In this document: in pieces, positions 35,057-42,708 of the stretch | Position numbering within the stretch: position 1 is the first letter of the stretch | Layout of the letters: each line of letters begins with the position of its first letter | Assembly: GCA_903873185.1 (NCBI GenBank) | Contig: CAIQNN010000052.1 | Coordinates: forward strand, 1-50,861 | Direction of reading: 5' to 3' | Source: an uncultured Actinomycetes bacterium | Lineage (GTDB): Bacteria > Actinomycetota > Actinomycetes > Nanopelagicales > Nanopelagicaceae | DNA: 50,861 nt | The notes under the pieces: generated by a model | What the model saw: only the letters and a program-made list of their open reading frames with translations | What the model was told of the DNA's origin: nothing | Database searches by the model: none | Made by a program: the position numbers and the translations under genes

Positions 35057-35734
35057 TTAACGGTTTAAGCCACGCTCAGCTTCGCGGACTGCGACCCGAT
35101 TTAGGCTCGGATGATCAGCCAGAAATGCCCGAACCGCCGGCTTATCAAAGGCGGCGATATCGCGCAGCGCCCAACCGATCGCCTTTGCGATAAAGAATTC
35201 GGACTCCCCTGCCTTCTGATGGCAGAGCCAGAGAACGAAATCGACCTCGGTCTCGGTGCGCCGGCCACGTTGGTGCCCGATCGCCGCCCGATTAATCCAG
35301 ATGCTTGGATCTTTGATCCAGGTGCGCATCAGCGTTCGCGAGGGGTATTTCCAGGCCAACGGAGTAACTGCCGCGCCCAGCCCATCAACTGTGTCCCACC
35401 AAGGATTGGTGCGGATGAGGTCGGCAACGGTGGTGGCCAAGAAATTCCTATCGGCCAGGTCGATGTATTGGGCTAATAAGTCGTTGGCGGCAAAGGCATA
35501 TTCGCGAAACTCTTGGGCATATAGAAGTTTGGCGGCTTTAGCGAGTTCAGTGGAATTGGCAGGTGGGTGCGCCTTCAATACCGGCTTGGTGGCGGCGCGA
35601 CGATCGGGCGCCGAAATTCCCAAGAAGGGGGCAATATCTTTCATATAAGCCTGCTGGTCTAAGGCGCGCTTGTGATCGGCTAGCGGAAGAAGGGCCGCTT
35701 TAACTTCTTTCAGAAGTTTGCTCTCGTAGGACAT
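35057..35734 (-). CDS. AlkD-type DNA alkylation repair protein
   Basis: A HEAT-like-repeat DNA glycosylase of 225 residues. The motif N-P-W-W-D-T-V-D near 112 supplies the Trp and Asp known from AlkD, and G-W-A-L-R-D-I near 187 has the third aromatic residue. Y-M-K...F-L-G-I near 30-40 is also typical. It removes N3/N7-alkylated purines. It starts 14 bases after the glutamine-synthetase-like gene and may be co-transcribed with it, though its job seems unrelated. Confidence 0.9.
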   Translation of the reverse strand: MSYESKLLKEVKAALLPLADHKRALDQQAYMKDIAPFLGISAPDRRAATKPVLKAHPPANSTELAKAAKLLYAQEFREYAFAANDLLAQYIDLADRNFLATTVADLIRTNPWWDTVDGLGAAVTPLAWKYPSRTLMRTWIKDPSIWINRAAIGHQRGRRTETEVDFVLWLCHQKAGESEFFIAKAIGWALRDIAAFDKPAVRAFLADHPSLNRVAVREAERGLNR

Positions 35735-35748
35735 TCCAGATCAGCTTT

Positions 35749-37101
35749 CTAGAAGGTAGAGAAAGTTTCTAATCGCGCCCACTCATCGCCATTGGCCGTC
35801 GCTTTGGCATTTTCGGCGCGACGAGTCGCAAGGTAGGCCCGCGTCATTAGCTCGCCTAAGCCAGCGGTGAGGACCGCGTCATTTTCTAGCGCAGTTAAAG
35901 CGGCTAATTGGGAATTAGGGAAAGGTCTAATTCCACATGCTTCTTGCTCTTCTTGTGACAACAGCACTGGATCCCGATGAGCCGGCTTTGGCGGTTTTAG
36001 TCCGCGTTTAACGCCATCCATGCCAGCAAGGATTACACCGGCTAACGCAAGATAGGGATTAGCTGAACCATCGCATGCTTTGAGTTCCAGATTAATCGAT
36101 TGCATTTCTCGGCCCTTGAATGGACTGGCAACTCGTACTGCACATTCACGATTGTCATAACCCCAAGAGATGGTGTTTCCGGCCCACGCGTGTGGCTGCA
36201 ATCGAAGATGTGAAACAAAAGATGGGCAAGTCAGCGCAAGTAAGCCGGGTAAATGTTCTAGTACGCCAGCGACGAATGATTCGCCAAACTCGGAAATCTT
36301 GGTTGGCTCATCTTCATTGAAAAGTAAATTGAGTTTCTTCTCTTTGTCCCACAACGAGAAATGTAGATGAGCACCGGAACCAATGCCATCTTTGAACGGC
36401 TTTGGTGCCAACGATGCAAGCAAACCAAATTGCACTTCAGCAGTGCCACGAATCGTGTCGCGAAATTGCAGATGCTGATCGGCTGATTCCAGGGCGGGGC
36501 CGTACTTAATTGCAATCTCTAGCTGACCAGGGCCGTATTCGTTAATCGCCTGTTCAACAATAATCCCCTGAGCGGTGAGGTTATCGACCATTAGATCAGT
36601 TACCTCGCTAGCGCGATCCATGCCAGAGCTGGAGTAGCAAGGGCCATTGCGCCATGGAACTGGGCCATCAGGTGATTCTTCGGCCAAGTAAAACTCGGAT
36701 TCAAAGGCCGACATCATTTCAATTCCTTGCGCTTCAAGAGTTGCCAATGCCCGCTTTAGGACGGAACGAGTACATCCATCCCAGTTGGTGCCATCTTGAT
36801 TAAGCAGATCGCTGTGCATCGCTGCGGTGCGATCCAACCAGGGAAGTACTTTGAAAGTGTTCAGATCTGGAACGATTCGAACTTCGCCCACCGGCTCCAT
36901 GCCATCAACATAAACTAGCTCTTCAAAGAGGTTGACCGCGTTCTGCGCTCGCGTGAGTCCAACGCCTTCATTCAATTTGGATTCAAGTTGCGATGCATGA
37001 ACGGTCTTGCCTCGGATCACACCAGCAAGGTCACAATAAAGAAAGCGGATCAATCGAAGGTTCTGCTCTTGCGAGATACTTAAGAGTTCTTTCTTTTTCA
37101 T
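35749..37101 (-). CDS. glutamine-synthetase-like ligase (gamma-glutamyl-amine synthetase type)
   Basis: The 450-residue protein keeps the GS metal and substrate residues: E134 and E136 in F-E-S-E-F, E188 and E195 in E-Y-G-P-G-Q-L-E, and the G-S-G-A-H-L-H motif at 241-247. The C-terminal block reads L-E-L-K-A-C-D-G-S-A-N-P-Y, close to FluG and PuuA-like proteins rather than to the nitrogen-assimilating GlnA. Such enzymes attach glutamate to amines or related substrates using ATP. It is last of the permease-cyclase-ligase-amidohydrolase set, with GGGGGAG before its ATG. The substrate is unknown. Confidence 0.85.
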   Translation of the reverse strand: MKKKELLSISQEQNLRLIRFLYCDLAGVIRGKTVHASQLESKLNEGVGLTRAQNAVNLFEELVYVDGMEPVGEVRIVPDLNTFKVLPWLDRTAAMHSDLLNQDGTNWDGCTRSVLKRALATLEAQGIEMMSAFESEFYLAEESPDGPVPWRNGPCYSSSGMDRASEVTDLMVDNLTAQGIIVEQAINEYGPGQLEIAIKYGPALESADQHLQFRDTIRGTAEVQFGLLASLAPKPFKDGIGSGAHLHFSLWDKEKKLNLLFNEDEPTKISEFGESFVAGVLEHLPGLLALTCPSFVSHLRLQPHAWAGNTISWGYDNRECAVRVASPFKGREMQSINLELKACDGSANPYLALAGVILAGMDGVKRGLKPPKPAHRDPVLLSQEEQEACGIRPFPNSQLAALTALENDAVLTAGLGELMTRAYLATRRAENAKATANGDEWARLETFSTF

Positions 37102-37115
37102 GGCACTCCCCCGTA

Positions 37116-38285
37116 TTACTTAGTTAACCCATAAGCGGCCAGCGCATTGTCGCGCCCGATCGCTGTTACGACTTTAACCGCATCTGCTGTTGACCAATCC
37201 CCGCGAGCGATAAAGGAGTCCACAATCTCGCCAAGTCCGCGGCGAAAGAGCAACGCGCCTAAGTAAGTCAGTTCTGGCAAGCCCCAAGCATCGGAAGAGA
37301 AAAGAATCTTGTGAAATGGCGCAAGCTCTAGCGATTCCGCGATGATGGCGTTAGAACGAGCACCGGAATAATTGATCGCTAAGCCAACATCCAAATAAAC
37401 GTTGCGGAACATCTGTGCCAAATAACCGGCATTGCGTTGATATGGATAGGTGTGAAGCAACAAAATTGGAATCTCTTTGGCTTCGAACTGGCGGATCAGA
37501 TCGGTCAATAGTAGCGGATCACAACGATGAAGATTGAGATCTGGATCGCCAAAACCAATATGGAATTGAAATGGCTTCTTCAATTCGGCCGCGCTGTAAA
37601 TCAAATGTCTAAGCAGGATTGGATCGGCAACTCGAGACTTCCCGGTTTGTTCAACCTCTTTCAACCACGTGCCAGCGGCAACTTCTACTTCAGATTTTGA
37701 TGGCGCTTGAAAATCAAAATCCAAGCCGATCCGATAAGCCACGACCGACTTAACCCCAACTGCATTCTTGGCAGACTTGGCTAACTCTTCGTTAAAAGCA
37801 GATGCGAAGTTGGCGGCGCTCACGCCAGAGGTTGCAACTTTTTCGGCAATGGTTTCGATGCGAATTACTTCGGAAACTTTAGCACCCGTGACTTTTGCCA
37901 TTCCTTCGGGGCCATAGATTTCATCGCCACGGAAGCCGGTTTCAATAAAGTAGTGATCGATTCCGGTTGCGCCGAGCAGCCGCTTATTCACTTCATCTGC
38001 GCCCAGTTCAATTCGACGAGCAAAGTAATCGCTGGAGCTGGCAAATGGTTCGAGGTCCAATAGCGGGGCGACCCAACGGCGGGTAGCAAAGCCAACCTGG
38101 GTATTCATCGCTTCATCGAGCGAGCGGGGCGTGCGGTCTGATTCGGTAATCATGTTGGTGAAAGATTCGAGCGATGGGTTCTCGCGAACTACGCCATGAA
38201 CATGGTGGTCAACTAGCCCCAGTTCCGCTAAAGCTTGGCTGGCTGCTCCGGCGGGTGAAACTGCCCAACTTGGTTCAATAGACAC
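37116..38285 (-). CDS. amidohydrolase of the FluG N-terminal type
   Basis: An amidohydrolase_2-type metal-dependent TIM barrel: D-H-H-V-H-G near the N-terminus, F-H-I-G-F-G-D in the middle, L-L-H-T-Y-P-Y later and S-S-D-A-W-G near the end, which are the expected metal and catalytic positions. In fungal FluG this domain is fused to a GS-like domain; here the two are adjacent separate genes. The GTG at 38285 is chosen because GAAAGG precedes it at good spacing; a start at 38312 would lie deeper in the neighbouring gene. It overlaps the upstream ligase gene by 11 bases. Confidence 0.8.
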   Translation of the reverse strand: MSIEPSWAVSPAGAASQALAELGLVDHHVHGVVRENPSLESFTNMITESDRTPRSLDEAMNTQVGFATRRWVAPLLDLEPFASSSDYFARRIELGADEVNKRLLGATGIDHYFIETGFRGDEIYGPEGMAKVTGAKVSEVIRIETIAEKVATSGVSAANFASAFNEELAKSAKNAVGVKSVVAYRIGLDFDFQAPSKSEVEVAAGTWLKEVEQTGKSRVADPILLRHLIYSAAELKKPFQFHIGFGDPDLNLHRCDPLLLTDLIRQFEAKEIPILLLHTYPYQRNAGYLAQMFRNVYLDVGLAINYSGARSNAIIAESLELAPFHKILFSSDAWGLPELTYLGALLFRRGLGEIVDSFIARGDWSTADAVKVVTAIGRDNALAAYGLTK

Positions 38286-39567
38286 GGGAATACCTTTCGC
38301 ATTTTTCTTCATCGGTTAAACCGGACAGTTCAATTTCTTCGCTCGTTCTAATTCCCAGGTGAGCCGCAAGCAGCTCTTCTGAGAACCAAGATAGTACTTC
38401 TGGATCTGACTTCAAACTTTCGATCGCCTTAGTTATCGATTCAGGTAAGCGTTTAATCGATGGATCTTCGTAAGAGATTGGTTCGGTGTGAATTGGATCG
38501 ACTCGCTTGCCGGCCGTTATTCCTGCCGTGATGGCCCGTGCCAAAACGGAGATTACTAACCAAGGATTTGAGGTGGCATCGGCAGCTCGATATTCCAGAT
38601 TGAAGGAGGCTGCTGGGTCAGCGCCATTTAATGTGGTTAATGGGCAGATGCGAAGCAGCGCTTCCCGATCTTGCACGGCAGCAAAAATTCCGGCCGAGCT
38701 CCATCGATGTGGTTGCAAGCGAAGCGCCGAGATCTGACTGGAGGCGGTCCAGGCTTGCAAAGCGCCGGCATGCGCCAAAATCCCCGCCGCGGCGAAGGAG
38801 GCAAGCTCTGACAAATTACCAGGTTGGGTTGGATCAAAAGTTATTGGAAGACCGTTCTTCGAAAGCGAGAGATGAACGTGCACCCCATTTCCAACGGCAG
38901 TCGGTGATACCAACGGAACAAAGCTAGCGCGCAGGCCATGGCGCCTGGCGGTATCTCTGACAATCTCGCGAAGTAATACCGCACGATCAGCCGCGATCAT
39001 GGCTGGCGAAGGCTTAACGGTAATTTCAAATTGGTTTGCGCCATATTCGGCCAACCAATTTTCTGGCTCTAGGCCGTTGGATTCAAGCAGTGATACGAGT
39101 TCGCTCCCAAATGGTTCTGCAATTCGAAAACTATCTAAACCAAATGCTGAACCTTCCGGAATCGGCGTTAGCGAAATCAAGGCAAATTCATGTTCAAATG
39201 AGGCCACCAAGTCAATGCCGTGCACCGCCTTAAGCTGCGCAATACTTTCCTGCGCATGAGTGCGCGGGCAGGAACTCCAAGGTGAACCATCAGGAAGAAC
39301 TTGATTAGCCAAGAAAATCGAAAGCGGAGCTGCTGCGCCAATGCTTGGCAAGGTAATTTCGGTGCTTAAATCGGGGAGCAATCTGAGATCGCCGACAGAA
39401 CCAAATGGATTATCGTCATCAATACCACCAAATGCATTTAAGGATAGATCTGCTGGAACCCAACCAACGCTCTTGCCATGATTTACAACCGCATCACGAC
39501 TTAAAGAGCGACCACGGACCAACCCCACCAAATCACAAGTAGCTATAAAAGCTAGTGGAGTACTCAC
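38275..39567 (-). CDS. second glutamine-synthetase-like ligase, divergent
   Basis: A 430-residue relative of the GS family: E125 and E127 in F-E-H-E-F, E174 and E181 in E-Y-G-A-N-Q-F-E, and G-N-G-V-H-V-H at 226-232, so the metal site looks intact. The C-terminal block is E-Y-R-A-A-D-A-T-S-N-P-W. The protein is quite different from the ligase at 35749-37101, suggesting another substrate or a partner subunit. The GTG starts ten bases after the cyclase stop; AGGAA lies very close to it. Confidence 0.8.
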   Translation of the reverse strand: MSTPLAFIATCDLVGLVRGRSLSRDAVVNHGKSVGWVPADLSLNAFGGIDDDNPFGSVGDLRLLPDLSTEITLPSIGAAAPLSIFLANQVLPDGSPWSSCPRTHAQESIAQLKAVHGIDLVASFEHEFALISLTPIPEGSAFGLDSFRIAEPFGSELVSLLESNGLEPENWLAEYGANQFEITVKPSPAMIAADRAVLLREIVRDTARRHGLRASFVPLVSPTAVGNGVHVHLSLSKNGLPITFDPTQPGNLSELASFAAAGILAHAGALQAWTASSQISALRLQPHRWSSAGIFAAVQDREALLRICPLTTLNGADPAASFNLEYRAADATSNPWLVISVLARAITAGITAGKRVDPIHTEPISYEDPSIKRLPESITKAIESLKSDPEVLSWFSEELLAAHLGIRTSEEIELSGLTDEEKCERYSRVY

Positions 39568-39577
39568 TTCCTAATTA

Positions 39578-40273
39578 TTACGGAAGTAAGGCGAGAACGC
39601 GTGCTGGACTTCCAGAACCACCAACGAGCGGAAGAACACCAACAACTATCCAGGCACCAAGTGGTGGCAGTTGCTTTAGATTCTGTAAATTCTCTAGATG
39701 CCACAAGCCTGCCGGGTGGGAAACTTGGGAATGGACTGGAAAATCGCTGGCACAACCGGGATCAATTCCCAAGGTATCGGTACCCAATCCTGCGGCAGCA
39801 CGTTCTTCAACTAAGAACTTTGCCGCTTCAACGCCAAAGCCGGGAAAATGTAAATCGCCGGGAGCGCCGGCATAACGAAGTTCATCGGTATTGAAATCTT
39901 CCCAACCGGTACGCAGCAAAATAGCGGCACCAGCAGGGATCTGGCCATTGGCCGCTTCGAAGGCTTGGACTTCTGCCAATGTCAGCACGGCGTCGGCATC
40001 GCTGCCGACGCGCGCTGAGATATCGATTACAACTGCTGGGCGAACCAATGACTTAGCAGGAATTTGATCAACGGTGGCTTTGCCTTCAATGAAGTGACAG
40101 GGCGCATCAAAGTGCGTTCCGGTGTGTTCAAAGAAGGAGACGCGGCGAGCAAAGTACCCGTCGTGCTTGATCGTAACTAGCGTCTCCGCTTCAGGAGCTG
40201 GAGCCCCTGGCCACATAATGATTCCAGCACCTAGTGGAATTGTTAGATCAATTACCGTTGCATTGCCAAGCAT
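39578..40273 (-). CDS. cyclase-family metal hydrolase (kynurenine formamidase-like)
   Basis: The PF04199 signature H-T-G-T-H-F-D-A-P-C-H-F near residues 50-61 gives the metal-binding His and Asp set of kynurenine formamidase and isatin hydrolase. The rest, including L-R-T-G-W near 120 and a late H near 185, also fits. Length is 231. It would open an amide or ring. AGGAG precedes the ATG. It lies between the permease and the ligases, suggesting action on an imported compound. Confidence 0.82.
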   Translation of the reverse strand: MLGNATVIDLTIPLGAGIIMWPGAPAPEAETLVTIKHDGYFARRVSFFEHTGTHFDAPCHFIEGKATVDQIPAKSLVRPAVVIDISARVGSDADAVLTLAEVQAFEAANGQIPAGAAILLRTGWEDFNTDELRYAGAPGDLHFPGFGVEAAKFLVEERAAAGLGTDTLGIDPGCASDFPVHSQVSHPAGLWHLENLQNLKQLPPLGAWIVVGVLPLVGGSGSPARVLALLP

Positions 40274-40302
40274 GGTTCTCCTGAATTGTTAGTTGTTATT
40301 AA

Positions 40303-41748
40303 TTAGGAACGAGCTTCTGAGAGTTTCTCATCGGCAGTTAATTTTGCGCCAATTTTCGCAGCCAGTGCTGGCCGAGAAACGATGGCAACAATTCCAATTA
40401 GCAACCAGATAGCGCCAACGATCGGATATGCCCGACCAGCACCACTTGTTGGGAACGGAATCACATTCTTGTAAAGGGTGTAAAGGAGCAGAGCGATACC
40501 GGCGATAGGAATGATGATCTCCCATTGCTTCGTGCGCTTCTTGCCTGAGAAGAACAAGAATTTGATAGCGCCAACTGTTGCCAGTAAGTACGCCACCAAG
40601 ATGATTAGAGTTCCAATAACACCACTGCCAAGGAAGATATCGAATGGCTTAACGTGCCAGACCAACTTCCAGACGATCATGATGATTGCAGCTGCGCCAA
40701 CAATGACTCTGGTGGCATTTACTGGAACACCATTCTTCTCTGATAGCTGCGACAGGCTGGAATTGCCACCATCGCGAGCTAACGAGAATGAAAGGCGGGC
40801 GCCACCAACCACGCAAGCCAAGCAGCAGCCAAAAGCGCTGATAGCGGCTCCCAAGGTGATGATCGTTCCCATCCATGAGCCAACATATTTGGTGCCAAGG
40901 TCGCCAAGCAATGAACCGGAGCTGACATAAGCCTTAACTCCAGCTGCATCGGTTCCAAAGCCCATAACTTCGACAGCAGTAACGATTACAAAGTAAACGC
41001 CGCCAAAGATCGCAGTTCCAAGCATGGCCCGTGGGATATCTTTTCTTGGATTCGTTGTCTCTTCACCCAAGGTTGCTGCTGCTTCGAAGCCAGCAAACGA
41101 GAGGAAGCCAAAGACCACACCAAGGAAGACACCGCTTGTACCAACGCCCTTAGGAATTGAGAAGACCGACCAATCAAGATGGTGATTTTCTGGGGCATGG
41201 CCGCCAGCGAGCTTCGCAAAGATGATGACGGTGGTGATAAGAATAAGAAGAACAGTTACGCCTTCAACGCTTAGAAGAACGCGAGTTCCGTTACGAGCCG
41301 GGGCAATAGCTACAAAATAAGCCAATACCAGTGCAATCGCACCAATTAGGAATCCAGACCAGGCTGGCTGGTGATGCCAAACGCCAAGTTCATCCAAGAA
41401 GGTGGAGCCGAAGATGCCAGCGGCCATCGAAGTTACGCAACCATAAAAAATGTAAGTGCCGAGCAAACCCCAACCTGCTACAACGCCTGAGCGTGGGCCC
41501 ATTGTTGCGCCGACGAAGCCATAAACGCTTCCAGCGTGGTTAAAGTTTTGAGTCAATCGGACGAAGCCATAGGCGACGAGGAGGACGCCAATTGTCGCGA
41601 GTGCGAATGCAACAGGAACGGCGCGGCCAACCACGCCAGCGGTTCCCTGTGGATTTATGTTGGCGGCCATCGAAGGTGCCATCAGCGCAACTGAGATACC
41701 AATTGCTTCCCACACGTTGAGATTCTTAACTAGATTTTTACCTGACAT
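40303..41748 (-). CDS. APC-superfamily amino acid/amine permease
   Basis: A 481-residue membrane protein with about 12 segments. The first membrane helix has the APC pattern (G-I-S-V-A-L-M-A-P-S-M-A), and F-A-G-F-E-A-A-A-T-L-G-E-E near 220 is the conserved segment with the substrate-site Glu. It probably imports an amino acid, amine or related compound by proton symport. It is first of a minus-strand run with gaps of 30 bases or less through the second ligase and AlkD. GGAGG precedes the ATG. Confidence 0.88.
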   Translation of the reverse strand: MSGKNLVKNLNVWEAIGISVALMAPSMAANINPQGTAGVVGRAVPVAFALATIGVLLVAYGFVRLTQNFNHAGSVYGFVGATMGPRSGVVAGWGLLGTYIFYGCVTSMAAGIFGSTFLDELGVWHHQPAWSGFLIGAIALVLAYFVAIAPARNGTRVLLSVEGVTVLLILITTVIIFAKLAGGHAPENHHLDWSVFSIPKGVGTSGVFLGVVFGFLSFAGFEAAATLGEETTNPRKDIPRAMLGTAIFGGVYFVIVTAVEVMGFGTDAAGVKAYVSSGSLLGDLGTKYVGSWMGTIITLGAAISAFGCCLACVVGGARLSFSLARDGGNSSLSQLSEKNGVPVNATRVIVGAAAIIMIVWKLVWHVKPFDIFLGSGVIGTLIILVAYLLATVGAIKFLFFSGKKRTKQWEIIIPIAGIALLLYTLYKNVIPFPTSGAGRAYPIVGAIWLLIGIVAIVSRPALAAKIGAKLTADEKLSEARS

Positions 41749-41838: not shown

Positions 41839-42708
41839 TCAGGATTTAAGCAGTACTCGAGTCTGCATGCAGTCACTTGCCATTTGTACCAAGAGTTCAT
41901 CGAGACTTTCGAACTTCAGGGTGTCGCGCAGGCGATAGAGGATTTCCAGTTTGGCTTCTTGATCATAAAGATCAAGATCGGTCTCATCTAGAGCATACGC
42001 CTCGACCTGGCGACCTCGAATTCCAGGAAAAGTCGGGTTGGTGCCGATTGAAATTGCAGCTGGCCAACGAATGCCGCCCACGGTTAACCAACCGGCGTAA
42101 ACCCCATCTGCCGGAATCGTGGCATAAGAAGCAAGTCCGATATTGGCTGTGGGATAGCCAATTTCACGGCCACGTTTTTCGCCATGCACTACTGGACCAG
42201 AAACATAATGCGGCCGGGTCAACAAATCCGCCGCTCGTTCTACATCGCCATCCATAATTAGGTTGCGAATTCGGGTCGAAGAAACCGGAACGCCGCGATT
42301 CTCTTCCAATTTTATTGCAGTCACATCGAAGCCGCGCTTATGGTTTCGCAAATACTCAACGTTGCCAGCCGCCTTGTGGCCAAAAGTGAAATTCTCGCCA
42401 ACGACAATGTGTGTTGCTTGCAATTTTTTTACCAAAATATCTTCAATGAATTGGTCTGGTGATAAAGCGGAAAACTCTTTGGTGAATTCAATTACGACGA
42501 CTTCATCAGCGCCGTGATGCTTTAGCAACGCGATTCGGTCATCCAAAGAGACCAATTGTGATGGTGTGCGTTCTGGGGCGAAAACCGAAGTTGGGTGTGG
42601 GTAGAAAGTTAAGGCGATAACTTTTCCATATAACTTTGCCAACTTAAGTAGCTCTTGATGGCCAGCATGAACGCCATCAAAGATACCAATCGCTACCGCT
42701 CGGTTCAT
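41839..42708 (-). CDS. ribF: bifunctional riboflavin kinase/FAD synthetase
   Basis: RibF makes FMN and then FAD. The nucleotidyltransferase start G-I-F-D-G-V-H-A-G-H is at residues 8-17. The kinase domain has G-R-E-I-G-Y-P-T-A-N near 180. Length is 289, slightly short but complete. It follows truB by seven bases, the standard order. Confidence 0.95.
   Translation of the reverse strand: MNRAVAIGIFDGVHAGHQELLKLAKLYGKVIALTFYPHPTSVFAPERTPSQLVSLDDRIALLKHHGADEVVVIEFTKEFSALSPDQFIEDILVKKLQATHIVVGENFTFGHKAAGNVEYLRNHKRGFDVTAIKLEENRGVPVSSTRIRNLIMDGDVERAADLLTRPHYVSGPVVHGEKRGREIGYPTANIGLASYATIPADGVYAGWLTVGGIRWPAAISIGTNPTFPGIRGRQVEAYALDETDLDLYDQEAKLEILYRLRDTLKFESLDELLVQMASDCMQTRVLLKS

Follow-up and report, generated by a model that had tools for sequence, protein, structure and literature searches.

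A conserved five-gene operon with an APC permease, two hydrolases and two glutamine synthetase-like ligases in an uncultured member of the Nanopelagicaceae, possibly serving the use of an organic nitrogen compound

Results and Discussion

The analyzed DNA, referred to as the window, is a stretch of 50,861 bp (contig CAIQNN010000052.1 of assembly GCA_903873185.1) from an uncultured actinobacterium of the family Nanopelagicaceae. ORF translation and profile matches revealed an operon on its minus strand (41748-35749), which encodes, in this order, an APC-superfamily permease (APC), a cyclase-family metal hydrolase (CYC), a glutamine synthetase (GS)-like ligase (GS1), an amidohydrolase (AMH) and a second GS-like ligase (GS2). 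With our confidence evenly balanced, we propose that these genes constitute a utilization operon for a bulky or cyclic nitrogen compound, based on gamma-glutamylation, as suggested by the families of the encoded proteins, their catalytic residues, the absence of an intact ammonium site from either ligase, the conserved linkage of the genes and the recurrent loss of GS1. The genes of the operon are as follows:

40303..41748, minus strand: APC, APC-superfamily permease (AA_permease_2), 481 aa; PF13520, 103 bits; ribosome-binding-like GGAGG upstream
39578..40273, minus strand: CYC, PF04199 cyclase-family metal hydrolase of isatin-hydrolase type, 231 aa; PF04199, 147 bits
38275..39567, minus strand: GS1, GS-like ligase of the PA5508 clade, 430 aa; 4hpp (PA5508), 299 bits
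37116..38312, minus strand: AMH, PF04909 amidohydrolase of FluG-N/2QPX type, up to 398 aa; 2qpx, E 5e-42
35749..37101, minus strand: GS2, second GS-like ligase, from a separate clade, 450 aa; NF045547, 420 bits (cut-off 650)

The original prediction, made from the sequence alone, described five same-strand genes with gaps of no more than 30 bases. Their order, strand and families are as it described: APC and CYC are separated by 29 bases, CYC and GS1 by 10 and AMH and GS2 by 14, while GS1 and AMH overlap.

The two ligases

Both ligases match PF00120 and PF16952 above the cut-off, and both retain residues E129, E131, E212, E220, H269 and E357 (E. coli GlnA frame). The residues of the ammonium site are changed in each of them (D50V, Y179A and E327W in GS1; D50T, Y179C and E327W in GS2), the Trp at position 327 being common to GS1, GS2 and PA5508. 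Two other GlnA-type proteins of the genome (C57 and C32) retain D50, Y179 and E327. As these three residues are lost in both GS1 and GS2, neither ligase should make glutamine from ammonia.

The phylogeny of the ligases (93 rows) was obtained by an IQ-TREE quick search, with SH-aLRT values as the only measure of support. GS1 and GS2 both belong to a group of 59 rows that excludes GlnA, with GS1 in the PA5508 clade (29 rows, SH-aLRT 100) and GS2 in a separate clade (16 rows, SH-aLRT 98). These clades are distinct from PuuA and from an AMH-linked GlnA3-like (Streptomyces-like) clade, in a tree that includes no named GlnA3 sequence. The alignment and the tree thus bear out the earlier view that the operon carries two dissimilar ligases with intact metal sites, and neither of them branches inside GlnA. 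On the ammonium-site residues and the tree position, we rejected ordinary GlnA for both proteins.

The best solved relative of GS1 is PA5508 (the next match reaches 99 bits), which is also the best one of GS2 (206 bits), with an archaeal GS close behind. The cut-off of the GlnA model TIGR00653 (429 bits) is not reached by the two ligases (135 and 229 bits); the best NCBIfam match of both is gamma-glutamylputrescine synthetase (420 bits for GS2 and 204 for GS1, cut-off 650). PA5508 is reported to prefer bulky amines (catecholamines) over polyamines and was not induced by polyamines (PMC6478659). We consider it highly probable that the operon acts through the gamma-glutamylation of an organic amine.

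The hydrolases and the permease

AMH is matched by 2QPX, a structure on which the N-terminal half of FluG has been modeled. The AlphaFold model of AMH (pLDDT 88.9) also retrieves 2QPX as the first Foldseek match (TM-score 0.80-0.84), followed by a Planctomyces amidohydrolase and uronate isomerases. Residues H37, H39, K188, Y193, H251, H287 and D341 are invariant or nearly so in 18 sequences; they make up the full set of seven that has been described as catalytic in FluG/2QPX (the two-metal H, H, K, H, H and D, plus a Tyr). AMH and the ligases are encoded by separate genes, not fused as in FluG proper.

CYC exceeds the PF04199 cut-off of 23 bits by far, and its HxGTHxDxPxH motif is intact and conserved in 21 of 21 aligned sequences. 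It had been likened to kynurenine formamidase, a comparison that has to be revised: in the PDB, CYC is far closer to isatin hydrolases (131-134 bits) than to kynurenine formamidase (35 bits), the match to 8f9x reaching 153 bits. KynB itself is rejected by TIGR03035 (41.5 bits vs. a cut-off of 223). Isatin hydrolases, the nearest relatives of CYC that have a named activity, open a lactam, which yields an aromatic amine.

The substrate of the permease could not be assigned from NCBIfam, where all matches are far below the cut-off, nor from the PDB, in which the matches to CAT4 and ApcT-type transporters are weak and too distant.

Conservation of the gene set

Gene neighborhoods of relatives were mapped by tblastn, and occurrences were counted across the family (296 genomes). 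AMH (at least 60% identity) is present in 19 of them, CYC (at least 58%) in 22 and GS2 (at least 69%) in 19. AMH shares 17 genomes with CYC and 15 with GS2, and CYC and GS2 occur together in 18 (Fisher p values of 2e-21, 2e-18 and 5e-24, respectively, not corrected for shared ancestry). In every genome with AMH that lacks CYC or GS2, AMH is located near a contig end. The five-gene set is nearly all-or-none in the family, most exceptions being contig ends.

Two arrangements were found. The order ribF-APC-CYC-GS1-AMH-GS2-rpsO is present in the genus of the window and in one second genus, while GS2-APC-CYC-GS1-AMH occurs elsewhere in genomes, not at ribF-rpsO. The presence of the operon is patchy (e.g. 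most genomes of the largest genus lack it). As many genomes share the gene order, the linkage goes beyond chance. The genes co-occur widely, and neither of the two outcomes that the original prediction named as refuting it (both ligases inside GlnA, or no co-occurrence in any other genome) was obtained. Two loci of relatives (L022 and L085; L numbers denote the loci compared) contain an extra uncharacterized gene of approximately 202 aa between ribF and APC.

Origin of the operon and the dispensable GS1

In other actinobacteria AMH adjoins a PA5508-type ligase, often together with an APC permease, an M20D hydrolase, a class III aminotransferase and an RpiR regulator; some other actinobacterial AMH genes adjoin other GS-like ligases. 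In the AMH tree, the protein of the window falls within a 19-row clade (support 100/100), which includes loci of metagenome-assembled genomes (MAGs) outside the rows of the family, with GS1 only. GS2 is in turn found together with an EgtC-like class II glutamine amidotransferase (GATase), APC and CYC (L102 and L186). In L103 and L104, the neighbors of a GS2 relative are an isochorismatase and short-chain dehydrogenases. This distribution suggests that two modules, GS1-AMH and GS2-(EgtC-like)-APC-CYC, were merged in the operon.

GS1 is absent from L020/L021 and L089, in which GS2 follows AMH, with APC, CYC, AMH and GS2 retained. In L091 (6371-7040) it has a large internal deletion that leaves its N- and C-terminal ends in different frames, between intact neighbors. 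GS1 thus appears to have been lost or broken about three times, and the core would therefore be GS2-AMH-APC-CYC. It is also the fastest-changing of the genes compared (50-60% identity between genera vs. 69-83% for CYC and GS2). The need for two ligases, left unexplained in the original prediction, is partly accounted for by the different source modules and the dispensability of GS1.

Candidates for deglutamylation and a second cluster in the same genome

EgtC is the enzyme that takes off a gamma-glutamyl group during ergothioneine synthesis, which makes EgtC-like proteins (PF13230) good candidates for the release of glutamate. Their genes are located directly beside CYC (L183 and L184), between GS2 and APC (L102 and L186), between AMH and APC (L108 and L192) or before GS1 (L023 and L025).

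The genome of the window was searched with chosen queries. Its contig C41 (L182, 1088-9758) encodes (i) an FAD-dependent oxidoreductase/GCV_T protein, (ii) a class I GATase, (iii) an APC permease, (iv) a GS-like ligase, (v) an aldehyde dehydrogenase and (vi) an EgtC-like GATase. The ligase, with C/D/F at the ammonium site, is the third one of organic-amine type in this genome, and the cluster probably represents a second amine-glutamylation pathway. Such a gene content is usual for the use of gamma-glutamylated polyamines or ethanolamine, which makes these compounds less likely for the operon of the window.

Several related loci were also recorded. In L183 (7309-8784) and L184 (2084-3544), of genus g6 of the same family, an EgtC-like gene and CYC form a pair without ligases, AMH or permease. 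The MAG contigs L023 and L025 (253-9457) carry, in one run, a branched-chain-type ABC importer, an EgtC-like GATase, GS1, AMH and a class III aminotransferase. Two Deinococcota plasmids (L130, 3122-6891; L131, 3740-6900) contain an Lrp regulator, a GS-like ligase (on its own branch) and AMH in a row, to which L130 adds a protein of the N-formylglutamate-amidohydrolase family. A Terrarubrum plasmid (L128, 5044-7305) has an apparent regulator-ligase fusion, in which a single annotated coding sequence gives matches to an RpiR-type regulator as well as to a PA5508-type ligase.

Proposed pathway and alternative explanations

In the proposed pathway, the APC permease would import the nitrogen compound, and CYC would open a cyclic amide (or remove an N-acyl group), exposing an amine. 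GS2, and in many lineages also GS1, would then join this amine to the gamma-carboxyl group of glutamate using ATP, and AMH would hydrolyze another bond, in an amide or a ring, immediately before or after this ligation. Glutamate could be recovered by an EgtC-like hydrolase, encoded elsewhere in this genome, or by AMH. We infer the direction of the pathway and the bulky or cyclic nature of the substrate; the order of the steps is put forward with less confidence than the scheme as a whole. The M20D hydrolase, class III aminotransferase, RpiR regulator and importers that are added in related clusters suggest a catabolic context. The earlier proposal of import, glutamylation, cleavage and recycling stands in so far as gamma-glutamylation is the best reading; cleavage by AMH is now one option, beside the EgtC-like GATases of related clusters. 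A more specific version, in which a cyclic or aromatic nitrogen compound of lake water is ring-opened by CYC and captured by two ligases coupled to a FluG-type amidohydrolase, is tentative and in our view rather doubtful.

Several observations weigh against the proposed pathway. Several lineages have lost GS1, so having two ligases is not essential. No enzyme of the operon oxidizes or deaminates a carbon skeleton. The EgtC-like relative encoded by the genome of the window, in the C41 cluster, is just 37% identical, and no close partner was found there. Moreover, the eukaryotic counterpart FluG, a fusion protein, regulates development by an unknown chemistry, which makes a biosynthetic role possible.

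In such a biosynthetic or signaling role, the ligase-hydrolase pair would produce a gamma-glutamyl metabolite, as is thought for fungal FluG. AMH and a GS-like ligase do correspond to the FluG domain pair, and the bacterial 2QPX (LSEI_0440) and PA5508 proteins can replace the halves of FluG (PMC6478659). We nevertheless consider this role quite improbable, as an importer belongs to the conserved set, the related clusters contain importers, an aminotransferase, a deacylase and RpiR regulators, and the optional use of a nutrient better explains the patchy presence in small genomes. Use of polyamines of the GlnA3 type is somewhat less improbable, although still unlikely. Here, GS2 and GS1 would glutamylate putrescine, spermidine or spermine and AMH would act as the hydrolase, on the model proposed for SCO6961-SCO6962. 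There, gamma-glutamylpolyamine synthetase is the function of SCO6962 (GlnA3), and the downstream SCO6961, of the amidohydrolase 2 family, is induced by polyamines (PMC5403932). The best NCBIfam match of both ligases points in the same direction, but its scores are far below the cut-off; both ligases are also in clades apart from PuuA and the AMH-linked GlnA3-like clade, and PA5508, the nearest to GS1, reportedly prefers bulky amines (PMC6478659). The operon encodes neither an oxidase like PuuB nor a dehydrogenase like PuuC, and its five genes include none for an amine oxidase, alcohol dehydrogenase or aldehyde dehydrogenase. With this lack and the separate APC-GS-aldehyde dehydrogenase-GATase cluster on C41, we rejected the use of polyamines or ethanolamine as the main function, and these two candidate substrates of the original prediction appear unlikely.

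Detoxification or buffering, in which the ligase masks a toxic aromatic amine as a gamma-glutamylamide and the hydrolase reverses this, like AtdA1/AtdA2 for aniline, is if anything slightly less probable than biosynthesis. For gamma-glutamylanilide, it is established that a GAT-like hydrolase carries out this reversal (PMC11335346), and hydrolases outnumber the other enzyme types here. The aniline systems, however, need a dioxygenase, which is absent from the operon, and the match to 8wwu is weak (58 bits to GS1 and 129 bits to GS2). We presume that 8wwu is the NpaA1 structure of the gamma-glutamylanilide study. Least probable by far is that GS1 and GS2 are ordinary spare glutamine synthetases beside unrelated hydrolases; their membership in PF00120 would agree with this, but the loss of the ammonium-site residues in both, the tree position and the conserved linkage already contradict it.

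If the proposed utilization is right, a further compound would join the nitrogen sources of small-genome aquatic actinobacteria, and the ring-opening, two-ligase catabolic route, if true, would provide the first natural substrate and the first reaction for the FluG amidohydrolase family. The operon is compact and its parts come and go among close relatives, which makes the question of the substrate testable with four small soluble enzymes and a permease.

Locus and insertion site

The genome (1.63 Mb, 65 contigs) is 97.7% complete; its lake origin is our reading of the isolate names of the nearest MAGs. The neighbors of the operon are as follows:

41839..42708, minus strand: ribF, left border of the insertion; NF004160, 332 bits (cut-off 295)
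35057..35734, minus strand: DNA alkylation repair-like protein; PF08713, 155 bits
34664..34978, minus strand: rpsO, right border of the insertion; followed by Actino-pnp RNA and pnp

The gap between ribF and APC is 90 bases. Of the 12 relatives examined, 7 have no operon here and carry ribF, rpsO and pnp side by side or almost so; in the remaining 5, ribF was not within the 1.5 kb fetched. This confirms the predicted insertion of the set between ribF and rpsO. The DNA-alkylation-repair gene, which lies on the same strand, 14 bases past GS2, between the operon and rpsO, probably does not belong to the system, because its third-position G+C content differs (0.62 vs. 0.43-0.50 for the operon genes) and it was not seen at this place in operon-bearing relatives whose contigs reach rpsO.

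Counted from the first ATG, AMH overlaps GS1 by 38 bases, and the first 20 residues are of low confidence in the AlphaFold model. The true start may be a GTG at 38285, preceded by GAAAGG, which reduces the overlap to approximately 11 bases.

The Actino-pnp RNA (RF01688; 34581-34639) is located upstream of pnp, as expected. It is the only Rfam match, and riboswitch control of the operon was rejected. A scan for consensus promoters found fewer sites than in shuffled sequence and was uninformative. A defense system was also rejected, since PADLOC yielded only a weak transporter match.

Comparison with known systems

In fungi, plants and bacteria, FluG-type amidohydrolases are either fused to a GS-like ligase or located next to one, and the reaction that they catalyze is stated to be unknown (PMC6478659). 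The pairing of GS with an amidohydrolase is already known, from the FluG/NodGS fusions and SCO6961-SCO6962 (PMC6478659, PMC5403932). A search of an open-access library, which is no proof of absence, found no report of such a five-gene set, in which a cyclase is combined with two ligases, and nothing relevant on isatin hydrolase with GS or on GS with an amidohydrolase and a cyclase.

The polyamine cluster glnA3 (SCO6962)-SCO6961-SCO6960 of Streptomyces coelicolor, also actinobacterial, resembles the operon in having a GS-like gamma-glutamyl ligase beside a protein of the amidohydrolase 2 family. It differs in its single ligase, presumably of another clade, and no cyclase or APC permease has been reported there. 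FluG and NodGS share the AMH-GS domain pair, AMH having the seven catalytic residues listed for 2QPX/FluG, but these proteins are fusions, whereas the operon has separate genes, two ligases, a permease and a cyclase. PA5508 of Pseudomonas aeruginosa (PauA7, 4HPP) has GS1 in its well-supported clade, with E327W and R355N in common; the nearest relatives of GS1, in contrast, are all actinobacterial and AMH-linked.

The GlnA4 ethanolamine cluster (SCO1610-1615) follows a similar logic of ligase plus hydrolase, but includes alcohol and aldehyde dehydrogenases, and its look-alike in this genome is the C41 cluster. The puuPADRCBE genes of the E. coli Puu pathway, compared in the same way, differ from the operon, which has no PuuB oxidase, PuuC dehydrogenase or PuuD hydrolase. 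Isatin hydrolases and the PF04199 family share with CYC the HxGTHxDxPxH motif, and the similarity of CYC to the solved isatin hydrolases is approximately 130 bits, although the genes near CYC include none of an isatin or indole pathway.

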